This document shows positions 25,129-29,330 of a DNA stretch of 47,357 bases, one piece after another. Within the stretch, counting starts at the first letter, position 1, and every line of letters begins with the position of its first letter. The position numbers were made by a program, and so were the translations under genes. The notes beneath the pieces were generated by a model. That model was not told where the DNA came from and did no database searches. It was given only the letters and a program-made list of their open reading frames with translations. Source of the stretch: an uncultured Clostridia bacterium (GTDB taxonomy: Bacteria; Bacillota; Clostridia; Oscillospirales; CAG-272); NCBI GenBank assembly GCA_947631245.1, contig CANRKP010000012.1:1-47357 (forward strand), given 5' to 3'.

Positions 25129-27531
25129 TCATTTTACGACGATATTGACTATCCTTCCGGGGACGTAGATCTCCTTGACAATGGTCTTCCCCTCCGTCTG
25201 CGAGAGTACGCGCGCGTCCGCCTTCGCGAGCGCGAGGACGTCCTCCTTAGAGGCGTTCTTGTCGACCGTCAGCGTGCCTCTCAGCTTGCCGTTGACCTGG
25301 AGCGCGAGCTCCACCGTCGCGTCGACCGTCTTTGCCTCGTCATGCTCGGGCCATGCTGCGAGCGAGAGCAGGCTCTTTTCTCCGAGCGTCTCCGCTATCT
25401 CCTCCGAGATATGGGGCGCGAACGGGCAGAGCAGCTTCACGAACGTCAGAAGCTCGTCGCGCGTCAGCGAGCCGTTGTCATATATCTCGTTGAGCAGAGA
25501 CATAAGCGCCGCTATCGCGGTGTTGAACTTCAGCTCCTCGATGTCTGCCGAGACCTTCTTTATCGTCTTGTGGAACGAGCTTTCGAGTTCGGGAGTGACG
25601 CCTTTGCCGCGCACAAGCTCCGTGAGCCCCGCGACGCGGTCGAGGAAGCGTTTTGCGCCCTTGACGCCCGTATCCGACCACGGTGACGCCACGCCGTAAT
25701 CGCCCATGAAGCAGACGTATGTACGCAGCGTATCGGCGCCGTAAGCGCTGACTATGTCGAGCGGGTCGACGACGTTGCCGAGTGACTTTGACATCTTCTG
25801 CCCGTCCGAACCGAGCACGAGACCGACTGCCGACCGCTTCATATACGGCTCGATGTAAGGCACCTCGCCGAGGTCATAGAGGAAGCGGTACCAAAACCGC
25901 GAGTATATCATATGGCGCGTGACATGCTCCATGCCGCCGTTGTACCAGTCGACGGGCATCCAGTATTTGAGCGCGTCCATCCCCGCGAATGCGCTCTCGT
26001 TCTTCGGGTCGCAGTAGCGGAGGAAGTACCACGAGCTGCCCGCCCACTGGGGCATCGTGTCAGTCTCGCGCTTTGCGTCGCCGCCGCACTTCGGGCACTT
26101 GCAGTTGACGAAGGACTCCACCTTTGCGAGCGGGCTCTCCCCGCCCTCTCCAGGCTCGAAATCCTCGACCTCCGGCAGACGCAGCGGCAGCTCGTCATAC
26201 GGCACGGGGACCATGCCGCAGTGCGGGCAGTGTACTATCGGTATGGGCTCGCCCCAGTAGCGCTGGCGGTTGAACGCCCAGTCCTTCATTTTGTATGTGA
26301 CGCCGCCTTCTCCTATGCCGCGTTCGGTCAGAACCTCGATCACGCGGGCGATCGAATCCTTCTTGTTGTCGTAACCGTTCAGGAAGTCGGAGTTTACCAT
26401 CTCGCCGTCGCCCGTGTAGGCCTCCTTTGAGATGTCGCCTCCCTTTATGACCTCGATTATGTCTATGCCGAACTTCTTCGCAAATTCGTAGTCGCGCTCG
26501 TCATGCGCCGGAACTGCCATTATCGCGCCCGTTCCGTATCCCATCATGACGTAATCGGCTATGTAGACGGGTATCTTTTTGCCCGAAAGCGGGTTAATCG
26601 CCGTCAGCCCGTCTATTTTTACGCCCGTCTTGTCCTTTTGGAGCTGCGTGCGCTCAAATTCCGTCTTTTTCGCGCACGCCTCGCGGTACGCCTTCACCTC
26701 GTCCATATTGGCGATTTTGTCGGCGTATTTGTCTATTATCGGATGCTCCGGCGCTATGACCATGAACGTCACGCCGAAGAGCGTGTCGGGCCGCGTCGTG
26801 TATATCCTGAGCTTATCCTCTATGCCGTCAAGCTCGAAATTGACAAACGCGCCGGTCGACTTGCCTATCCAGTTTATCTGCTGCTGCTTGATGTTCGCCG
26901 GATAATCGACGAGGTCGAGACCCGAGAGGAGCTTGTCCGCGTATTCCGTGATGCGAAGGTACCAAACCTCCTTCGATTTCTGAACGACGTCGGAATGGCA
27001 GATGTCGCATTTGCCGCCCTGCGAGTCCTCATTTGAAAGGACGACCTTGCATGACGGGCAGTAGTTGACGAGCGTCTTGTCGCGGAAAACGAGCCCGTGC
27101 TCGAACATTTTGAGGAATATCCACTGCGTCCACTTGTAGTAGTCCTCGTCCGTCGTATCGACGACGCGCGACCAGTCAAACGAATAACCCACGCTCTTGA
27201 GCTGGCGCGTGAAGTTTGCTATATTCCGATCGGTGACGATGCGCGGATGCGTCTTCGTCTTTATGGCGTAGTTCTCGGTATTGAGACCGAACGCGTCGAA
27301 CCCTATCGGGAACAAGACGTTGTAGCCCTGCATACGGCGCTTTCGCGAGAGGACCTCCATGCTTATGAACGCCTTGATGTGACCGACGTGGAGCCCCGCT
27401 CCGCTCGGATACGGGAACTCTATGAGCCCGTAGAATTTCGGGAGCGTGTGGTCGTCCTTCGCCTCAAAGGCGTGCTCCGCCTCCCAGCGGTCCTGCCATT
27501 TCTTGTCACCGACCGTAAAATCGTACTTCAT
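25129..27531 (-). CDS. leuS: Leucyl-tRNA synthetase
   Basis: This 800-residue class I aminoacyl-tRNA synthetase charges tRNA-Leu. It shows the HIGH-type signature YPSGAGLHVGHIKAF (about 37-51), a zinc-binding CPSCKVVLSNE region, the CP1 editing domain (about 220-410, with TRPDTLFG and GYGTGAIMAVPAHDERD) and the KMSKS loop GSDGQKMSKSLGNV (near 570). The length matches the Bacillus-type enzyme. I see no T-box element: only 28 bases separate it from the gene upstream, so it is transcribed as the last gene of the long run and not from a T-box-controlled promoter of its own. Confidence 0.97.
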   Translation of the reverse strand: MKYDFTVGDKKWQDRWEAEHAFEAKDDHTLPKFYGLIEFPYPSGAGLHVGHIKAFISMEVLSRKRRMQGYNVLFPIGFDAFGLNTENYAIKTKTHPRIVTDRNIANFTRQLKSVGYSFDWSRVVDTTDEDYYKWTQWIFLKMFEHGLVFRDKTLVNYCPSCKVVLSNEDSQGGKCDICHSDVVQKSKEVWYLRITEYADKLLSGLDLVDYPANIKQQQINWIGKSTGAFVNFELDGIEDKLRIYTTRPDTLFGVTFMVIAPEHPIIDKYADKIANMDEVKAYREACAKKTEFERTQLQKDKTGVKIDGLTAINPLSGKKIPVYIADYVMMGYGTGAIMAVPAHDERDYEFAKKFGIDIIEVIKGGDISKEAYTGDGEMVNSDFLNGYDNKKDSIARVIEVLTERGIGEGGVTYKMKDWAFNRQRYWGEPIPIVHCPHCGMVPVPYDELPLRLPEVEDFEPGEGGESPLAKVESFVNCKCPKCGGDAKRETDTMPQWAGSSWYFLRYCDPKNESAFAGMDALKYWMPVDWYNGGMEHVTRHMIYSRFWYRFLYDLGEVPYIEPYMKRSAVGLVLGSDGQKMSKSLGNVVDPLDIVSAYGADTLRTYVCFMGDYGVASPWSDTGVKGAKRFLDRVAGLTELVRGKGVTPELESSFHKTIKKVSADIEELKFNTAIAALMSLLNEIYDNGSLTRDELLTFVKLLCPFAPHISEEIAETLGEKSLLSLAAWPEHDEAKTVDATVELALQVNGKLRGTLTVDKNASKEDVLALAKADARVLSQTEGKTIVKEIYVPGRIVNIVVK

Positions 27532-27559: not shown

Positions 27560-28522
27560 TCATTTTATTCGTGCGTAACCCACAGCCTCTATAAGCTCCT
27601 GCCCTTCGTCCGAGAGCAGCCAGTCAAGGAGGCGGCGGACGTTTTCATCTTCATTGTCTTTTCGACACACGGCGTAAAACTCCGTTACGAGCGGATATTT
27701 GCCGTTCTTTATATTCTCCGCCGTCGGCGAAACGCCGTCGACGGCGAGCATTTTAACGGTGTGCTCGCGCGGCACCGCCTCGACGTAGAAACGGAACGAA
27801 TAGCCGATCGACACGCCGAGAAAGCCGAACGCGCGTCCCGTTATCATCGGCTCGCCGTTCATGAAATGCTCCATCACCGTTTGGCTTCCGCTGCCCGCTA
27901 GCCGCGTTTTCGGGTCTATCATCCTGTCGGGCCCGCCAAGCTCGCTCCAGTTTTTGTATTTTCCCGTGTATATCCCGCGAAGCTGTTCCGCCGTGAGCCC
28001 GTTTACGGGGTTGTTCTCGTTCACAATAAAGACGAACCCCTCGCGCCCTATCGGTATGAGCTCGAGCTCCGCCCCGACAGAGGCGGCGTATTCCCTCTGT
28101 TCCTTCGACGGCGCGGCGCAGAACACGATGTCCGCGTCCCCGTCGGCGACCGCGCGGTACGCGCGCAGCGTGTTGCGGAACTGCACGGCGCTACCATCGG
28201 CGAACGCGCCGTTCTCGAAGGTCACGCTGCCCTCCGGGTAAACGGACGCGGCAACGGACGCGTATATGGGATAGAGAGCCGATGCGCCGTCGAGCACAGG
28301 CAGCCTGTCCCCGTCGGAAAACCTGAGGCTCGACTTGACCGTGACGGCGCGCGTCCCGTCCGCAAACGGGAGATAATCCTCAAGCGAGATCGCGTTTTTC
28401 CGCTCCTCCACCGTCATCTCGTCGACGGCGCGCCGCGTGAACAGCGCGTAGATCGAGACGTTCAGCGAAAGAAATATCGCGGCGACAAGAAATAATACTG
28501 CAATTGCGGCGCTTTTTTTCAT
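27560..28522 (-). CDS. PstS-like periplasmic-binding-fold protein, membrane-anchored
   Basis: This 320-residue protein has an N-terminal hydrophobic helix (about 5-27) with no lipobox Cys, so it is probably held at the membrane by an uncleaved anchor. The rest matches the PBP-like/PstS family: LDGASALYPIYASVAASVYP, DGDADIVFCAAPS, GREGFVFIVNENNPV, LTAEQLRGIYTGKYKNW, RLAGSGSQTVMEHFM and DWLLSDEGQELI. No transporter permease or ATPase is nearby, so it is an orphan binding protein; phosphate is the family ligand but unproven here. It starts four bases after a 46-residue membrane-protein gene and is likely coupled to it. Confidence 0.85.
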   Translation of the reverse strand: MKKSAAIAVLFLVAAIFLSLNVSIYALFTRRAVDEMTVEERKNAISLEDYLPFADGTRAVTVKSSLRFSDGDRLPVLDGASALYPIYASVAASVYPEGSVTFENGAFADGSAVQFRNTLRAYRAVADGDADIVFCAAPSKEQREYAASVGAELELIPIGREGFVFIVNENNPVNGLTAEQLRGIYTGKYKNWSELGGPDRMIDPKTRLAGSGSQTVMEHFMNGEPMITGRAFGFLGVSIGYSFRFYVEAVPREHTVKMLAVDGVSPTAENIKNGKYPLVTEFYAVCRKDNEDENVRRLLDWLLSDEGQELIEAVGYARIK

Positions 28523-28526
28523 TCCG

Positions 28527-28667
28527 TTACCAAAGCTCCGTCGCGATATAAGTTATTATCGAGCAGTTCTCGTATTCGTAAGCCGTGTACGCCGCAAGCG
28601 CCGCCGTCACCGTGACGCCGAGCGCGACGACCGCCGCCAAAAGAATATAAAATGTGCGCTCCCTCAT
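28527..28667 (-). CDS. 46-residue single-span membrane protein
   Basis: Direct translation gives a 46-residue protein: basic MRERT, one membrane helix (about 6-27) and an outer tail rich in Tyr with one Cys (YTAYEYENCSIITY). GAGG lies seven bases before the ATG, the upstream gene ends nine bases before, and the binding-protein gene begins four bases after its stop, so it fits tightly into the operon. A longer frame that overlaps here (28519-28779) reads as basic low-complexity and is a shadow. I do not recognise a family; a small partner of the binding protein is a reasonable guess. Confidence 0.65.
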   Translation of the reverse strand: MRERTFYILLAAVVALGVTVTAALAAYTAYEYENCSIITYIATELW

Positions 28668-28676
28668 CTTCCCGCC

Positions 28677-28928
28677 TCACATAAAGAAAATGGCGGCAAT
28701 GTATATGACTGTCAGCCACAGAACGCCGAGCACGGTGACGGCAAGGCAGACGGACGAAACGATGAGAAGTGCTAACCATATGCGCTTTTTTCTCGCAAGC
28801 GCGCCGTCAGCTTCCCCTGCTGCACACGCCTTTGACGCGCGGCGGAAAAAAATGAGACTGACGGCGAAAAACGCGGCGGATGCGACAGCCGGCATCAAAT
28901 ATAAGAAAAATATCAGAAAATCCGCCAT
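28677..28928 (-). CDS. Small membrane protein with two to three predicted spans
   Basis: This 83-residue protein is almost wholly hydrophobic. One span is at about 3-27, a short charged loop follows (FRRASKACAAGEADGALARKKR), and a long hydrophobic stretch from 50 to 83 can hold one or two spans. No family is recognised. It starts six bases after rsfS and is followed after nine bases by the 46-residue membrane protein and then the PstS-like protein, so the three may work together in the membrane. Confidence 0.7.
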   Translation of the reverse strand: MADFLIFFLYLMPAVASAAFFAVSLIFFRRASKACAAGEADGALARKKRIWLALLIVSSVCLAVTVLGVLWLTVIYIAAIFFM

Positions 28929-28934
28929 GATATT

Positions 28935-29330
28935 TTATCTTGCCGTCAGAGAATCCTTTATGTCGACCTCCTCCGCGTCCTCCCAGAGCTTTTCGAGCCT
29001 GTACGCGGCGCGGTTCTCCTCATTGAATATGTGCACGATCACAGAGTGATAGTCCATGCATATCCAGTTCGCCTCGGGGAGCCCCTCGATGTGTCCGGGC
29101 TGAAGCCCCGACTCGCCGATGAGGTACTCGACCTCGCCCGAGAGCGCGCGGATCTGCGTTGTGCTTGAGCCGGTGCAGATGACGAAATAGTCTGCGATTA
29201 TGGTCTTTTCCGTAACGTGGAGCAGCCGGATGTCTCCGGCGAGCTTGTCGTCGAGGATCCTTACTATCGAGTGCGCGAGCGCCTCGGGCGTTGATACGTC
29301 ATAAGTCTTTTTTGCTTCGTTGTTTTCCAT
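28935..29330 (-). CDS. rsfS: Ribosomal silencing factor RsfS (Iojap family)
   Basis: This 131-residue protein binds ribosomal protein L14 and blocks joining of the subunits when nutrients are short. Visible family marks are ALAHSIVRILDDKLAGDI, DYFVICTGSSTTQIRALSGEVE, GHIEGLPEANWICMDYHSVIVHIF and the C-terminal YRLEKLWEDA. The first 15 residues are polar and not conserved. In Bacillota rsfS usually follows nadD and yqeK; here an LCP gene stands between yqeK and rsfS, an arrangement also seen in Clostridia. Confidence 0.95.
   Translation of the reverse strand: MENNEAKKTYDVSTPEALAHSIVRILDDKLAGDIRLLHVTEKTIIADYFVICTGSSTTQIRALSGEVEYLIGESGLQPGHIEGLPEANWICMDYHSVIVHIFNEENRAAYRLEKLWEDAEEVDIKDSLTAR

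Follow-up and report, generated by a model that had tools for sequence, protein, structure and literature searches.

Organization of the locus

The window analysed here is the whole stretch of 47,357 nucleotides from an uncultured Clostridia bacterium. On its minus strand, three tightly spaced genes lie between rsfS (28935..29330; PF02410, 107.9 bits) and leuS (25129..27531; PF13603 and PF00133), the upstream and downstream flanks, both outside the unit. The order on this strand is rsfS, s83, s46, the gene of a PstS-like binding protein and leuS, and the gaps between successive genes are 6, 9, 4 and 28 bases. The s83 gene (28677..28928, minus strand) starts with ATG and encodes 83 amino acids, with two transmembrane helices joined by a basic loop and a methionine at the C-terminus. 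The s46 gene (28527..28667, minus strand) encodes 46 amino acids from an ATG, with one transmembrane helix and a conserved tail, CSIIxFIAxELW. The PstS-fold binding protein (27560..28522, minus strand, ATG start) has 320 amino acids. We found no ABC permease or ATPase gene among the immediate neighbours of this trio in the window. Residues 1-35 of the PstS-like protein include no cysteine, and it therefore has no lipobox. The layout of small membrane frames tightly spaced with a PstS-like gene, the missing lipobox and the absence of a nearby ABC permease or ATPase had all been proposed in an earlier note made from the letters of the window, and all three hold, the last for the immediate neighbours.

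Fold and pocket of the binding protein

The binding protein matched PF12849 (PBP_like_2) at 85.2 bits, over the cut-off of 27, while its score against the PstS subfamily TIGR02136 (95.8 bits) was far under the cut-off of 206.6. A single transmembrane helix was predicted at its N-terminus. The AlphaFold2 model (pLDDT 90.4) consists of an anchor helix (residues 3-35) and a binding domain (about 73-320), and its best match among solved structures was the phosphate-binding protein of C. perfringens 4gd5 (Z 22.7, rmsd 3.1 over 224 residues).

As described in excerpts of two papers (PMC12421899; PMC5439949), PstS contacts phosphate in the N-lobe through a Ser-Ser-Thr loop and a further threonine and serine, and in the C-lobe through Gly-Thr plus, in most branches, an arginine. 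We located the pocket positions by aligning 81 sequences of the trio type, and not on structural coordinates. In these 81 sequences the first N-lobe loop reads D-G-A-(A/T/S)-A. Ala80 and Ala82 were present in 81/81 and Ala136 in 79/81, at positions occupied by serine in four true PstS proteins from relatives. Thr118 was kept in 79/81, while Arg207 and S211-G212-S213 of the C-lobe were kept in all 81. Gln214, Phe243 and Arg244 were likewise invariant in the 81 sequences and were absent from the four true PstS. As judged from the alignment, the pocket should still be able to hold an anion, while the geometry for plain phosphate appears to be lost because the serines of the N-lobe that contact phosphate are replaced by alanines.

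The anchor helix is also conserved along one face, with a spacing of four residues: F17 in 77/81 sequences, asparagine or aspartate at position 21 in 79/81, tyrosine or phenylalanine at position 25 in 81/81 and T29 in 80/81. This conserved face exceeds the needs of a passive anchor.

Some distant PstS-like homologues (L023, L025, L026, L029 and L030) lie beside long extracellular regions or are joined to them. Several of these homologues have a lipoprotein-type start; the extracellular region at L026 gave a weak match to a WG repeat and the other regions matched no Pfam family.

Conservation of the small proteins

Comparison of the window with three congeners (G004, G005 and G008) gave dN/dS values of 0.10-0.27 for s46, 0.21-0.42 for s83 and 0.12-0.18 for the PstS-like gene. 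Because of these low values and of the recurrence of the trio at unrelated sites, the two small frames are more than chance frames; they are real and under purifying selection. The s46 tail was conserved across the 78 sequences aligned, and 79/81 collected copies of s83 ended with methionine. The model of s83 consists of two helices (pLDDT 74.5).

No family, and no transporter family among them, was matched over its cut-off by the 17 members of s83 that were searched. CrgA was rejected as an assignment of s83 (16.7 bits against a cut-off of 24.8, with one helix only being matched and 1/17 members giving a match), as was TctB, to which one member gave a sub-threshold match (E 0.038).

Linkage of the three genes

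A search of named genomes returned at least 560 relatives of the binding protein, the best 80 of which were checked for the trio; these are the relatives most similar to the query, so that the linkage counts favour close relatives. In 78 of these 80 loci from named Clostridia, s46 was located upstream of the binding protein gene, and s83 was detected in 73 of the 78 s46-bearing loci (profile E < 0.05). One copy of s83 was present in 57 of the 73 loci, two in 13 and three in 3, with some copies in tandem. The five s46-bearing loci that gave no match to the s83 profile at this threshold (L058, L086, L090, L103 and L108) were inspected by eye and have a short hydrophobic frame ending with methionine at the place of s83. 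The two loci without s46 are L083, which begins at a contig edge, and L072, where s83 is also missing. The same order of the trio was found in 14 further loci of about 50% identity (L005-L018), where s83 was more divergent and, in some, was identified from its position, its size and its C-terminal methionine. The stop codon of s83 often overlaps the ribosome site of s46, and the gap between s46 and the PstS-like gene was 0-4 bases where measured.

We then compared the surroundings of the 80 loci. Among the 569 neighbouring frames, the largest recurrent cluster was found at 7/80 loci, with changing distances, and no recurrent functional neighbour or linked permease of a known family was found. 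Since the neighbours differ between loci, the trio is an autonomous unit. The upstream neighbour is on the opposite strand in 25/74 loci, so that the unit must often need its own promoter. No fusion between the genes of the trio was found in the 80 loci. Rfam elements were sought as a clue to the ligand in 14 loci, and none of the three matches adjoined the trio. In Butyrivibrio sp. LB2008 the trio had a match on either side: a c-di-GMP-I riboswitch lay upstream at a distance of about 2 kb (L065:2899-2977), and a Clostridiales-1 RNA lay downstream (L065, 7341-7556). The literature matches listed on orphan PstS proteins, the fold, permuted PstS and small partners included no report of the trio, although one may exist.

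Relation to the Pst importer

The presence of a Pst importer was scored by a PstC match over the cut-off. The genome of the window, which is 95.5% complete, contained no PstC over the cut-off and no other match to the PstS family. Comparison of the genomes of the family sample showed that PstC was present in 8/31 genomes with the trio and in 28/115 of the others (Fisher p = 1), leaving 23/31 trio genomes without a PstC over the cut-off. The trio and PstC are independent across the family, and a role of the trio as an accessory or a replacement of Pst was rejected, since there was no association in either direction. The earlier note had made its proposal depend on the small frames being conserved and on the PstS-like protein not being found elsewhere always with a PstCAB transporter; the linkage counts and dN/dS values showed the former, and the protein was mostly found without PstC in the same sample.

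Four PstS proteins adjoining pstC had their two halves in swapped order (L115:619-1485 in G096, L116:3482-4378 in G040, L117:483-1352 in G022 and L118:550-1395 in G032). The match of PF12849 to each of them was broken into two stretches, and the C-terminal half of the protein aligned with the N-terminal half of the profile, whereas four canonical PstS (L111-L114) had the normal order. Judging from their sequences, the former look like natural circular permutants in working Pst operons; no report of PstS circular permutants was seen among the literature matches listed, as far as their excerpts extend.

Distribution, insertion and loss

The hosts in named records were mostly gut and rumen Clostridia, including Butyrivibrio, Oribacterium, Roseburia and Ruminococcus. 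Across the class, 5/148 evenly sampled genomes contained s46. It was found in 31/146 genomes of the family of the window, this number being reduced from 32/146 by leaving out G023, which had a partial s46 match (E 2.4e-4).

Among the 11 genomes of the genus (G000-G010), the trio lies between rsfS and leuS in four (G000, G004, G005 and G008), while rsfS is directly adjacent to leuS, without the trio, in three (G002, G003 and G010). These empty sites support the earlier proposal that the trio was inserted between the two genes. Remnants only were found in three others: in G001, the start of s83 is joined in one frame to the end of the PstS-like gene, and in G006 and G009 a good match is limited to the final 39-44 residues of the PstS-like protein. 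The remaining genome, G007, is 61% complete and gave no rsfS match. The empty sites and remnants in congeners mean that the unit is dispensable, and internal deletions have probably removed it on more than one occasion, these genomes being drafts in which assembly errors are possible. In another lineage, three loci (L043, L063 and L099) have the trio shortly downstream of nadD-like and rsfS-like genes, a site of the type seen in the window.

A binding protein 51% identical to that of the window was found on plasmid pTS1 of Treponema saccharophilum (L197:3637-4831). It is preceded by an s83-like protein of 71 residues, with two helices and a final methionine, and no s46 lies between the two; the annotated start of the binding protein omits its transmembrane helix. 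This spirochaete copy suggests a transfer between phyla. Carriage of the trio by mobile elements was otherwise rejected: no relative was confirmed on a viral contig in the 45 stretches examined, the 17 matches in phage records were weak, and the 28 matches in plasmid records were all below 60% identity, one of them, in Treponema, being close. A relative 39.6% identical was located in an unannotated stretch of NZ_OL790696.1 (L198), a record of 4.8 Mb that bears the label of an E. coli plasmid and looks mislabelled or contaminated. An open frame of 23,262 residues at G475:C3 was not reproduced in its DNA and was discarded as an artefact.

Membrane segments and multi-helix relatives

The predicted transmembrane segments of the trio, two in s83, one in s46 and one in the PstS-like protein, amount to four. 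We searched 197 genomes of the order and examined the best loci together with those of the earlier searches. Binding proteins with one helix had s46 and s83 upstream in 18/18 cases, whereas neither small gene accompanied the 14 relatives whose single chain is predicted to contain 2-6 helices (L183-L194, L022 and L126). The number of helices is exactly four in five of the 14; another relative, L195, lacks helices and small genes alike. Within the order, these multi-helix proteins are the nearest relatives that the binding domain has outside the trio, and share with it the loops DGA(A/T/E) and SGSQ. No sequence similarity was detected between s83 and their transmembrane part, so that the parallel with the trio would be one of layout and need not imply homology of the transmembrane parts.

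An apparent covariation between position 24 of s46 and position 21 of the anchor (59 H/N and 14 L/D pairs of 78) was rejected; because the tree leaves only 1-2 independent changes, the pairing reflects clade structure.

Discussion

Directly established are the genes and their linkage, the fold as predicted, the changes of the pocket at the level of sequence and the failure to find PstC or a true PstS in the genome of the window; from these we infer the existence of a complex, the class of its ligand and a receptor rather than a transporter role. The explanation that we tentatively prefer, while giving it somewhat less than an even chance, is that of a dedicated membrane receptor complex of three proteins, whose ligand would be an anion but not free phosphate. 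The assembly of the three proteins into one complex is likely; a receptor rather than a transporter is our best guess. The membrane complex put forward in the earlier note is made likelier by the strict linkage, the translational overlap, the conserved anchor face and the multi-helix relatives; the pTS1 copy without s46, the L072 locus without either small gene, the lack of similarity between s83 and the transmembrane part of the multi-helix relatives, and the clade structure behind the s46-anchor pairing count against our preferred explanation. The same note had the binding fold sensing or presenting a ligand. This stays a conjecture, as no ligand or downstream partner was found and no cytoplasmic signalling domain or linked signalling gene was seen across the 80 loci.

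In the proposed mechanism, s83, in one to three copies, would assemble with s46 and the anchor helix into a bundle of about four transmembrane segments, which would hold the binding domain at the outer face of the membrane. The domain would close on an anionic ligand carrying a phosphoryl-like group, through Arg207 and the 211-SGS-213 loop; it would not simply scavenge phosphate, since the N-lobe has lost the hydroxyls that hold free phosphate. The anchor helix would transmit this closure to the small proteins, and these would either pass it on or deliver the ligand to a partner whose gene lies elsewhere. Binding proteins that act on receptors are known, according to excerpts of one source (PMC9602780).

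The main rival is a minimal importer or channel, in which s83 and s46 would oligomerise as the permeation path and the tethered protein would deliver the substrate without an ATPase. The presence of up to three s83 copies would fit a helical pore, single-chain relatives with several helices exist, and the excerpts on TAXI-GltS, which was found through coupling and fusion, offer a precedent in logic (PMC12344293). We nevertheless consider this importer unlikely, since a unit provides only about four helices, the alignments show no conserved charge within the s83 and s46 helices for ion coupling, and no transporter family is matched. Still less probable is a surface complex without a transport function, in which the binding domain would serve as a scaffold or adhesin for another protein or for a phosphorylated polymer of the envelope, and closure on a small ligand would not be its task. 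Such a function would agree with the lost phosphate contacts, with a unit that is dispensable and often lost, and with the distant PstS-like lipoproteins that adjoin or are joined to other extracellular regions, but the anion loop of the C-lobe and many cleft residues are invariant in the 81 sequences, as expected for ligand binding. The PstS fold and the presence of Pst in some of the trio genomes (PstC in 8/31) could also point to an accessory or spare binding protein for a Pst importer encoded elsewhere. This last possibility is very improbable given the lack of PstC over the cut-off in the window's genome and in most trio genomes of the family, the lack of association with Pst, the loss of the phosphate-contact serines and the conserved partners that the protein has of its own.

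The receptor complex that we prefer can be set against known systems. The trio protein has in common with PstS (TIGR02136; C. perfringens 4gd5/4q8r) the fold and the C-lobe arginine and Ser-Gly-(Ser/Thr) anion loop, but it scores under the TIGR02136 cut-off, has a transmembrane anchor in place of a lipobox and alanines for the N-lobe phosphate-contact serines, and is linked to two conserved small membrane partners instead of PstCAB. TRAP (DctPQM), TTT (TctCBA) and TAXI-GltS also combine a binding protein with membrane proteins without an ATPase; these systems have a large permease, whereas the membrane partners in the trio are all small, with one or two helices, and no permease lies nearby. 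KdpF, AcrZ and MgtS are examples of very small membrane proteins that act on a larger partner or are encoded with it; that partner is a known transporter or pump, and none was seen for the trio. The coupling in TAXI-GltS was, as stated in excerpts, also deduced from gene linkage and fusions (PMC12344293). With more reserve than for the receptor complex itself, we suggest that the trio may represent an undescribed class, a tethered PstS-fold receptor on a bundle split between s83 and s46, in place of which relatives have one chain with helices of its own. Such a system would sense a phosphorylated metabolite, or move it, with no ATPase, symporter or kinase from any known family.

Solute-binding proteins are usually classified according to the transporter that they serve, and an annotator would assign this PstS-fold protein to a phosphate importer. 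Instead, it is part of a separate conserved unit that many Clostridia genomes carry, as seen in the best 80 of at least 560 relatives. The trio is open to experiment since some of its hosts are cultured strains (Butyrivibrio sp. NC2007, LB2008 and XPD2006, and Oribacterium sp. C9). If the trio is indeed a receptor or a minimal transporter, the binding fold would gain a new kind of output, and two families of very small membrane proteins would acquire a role.
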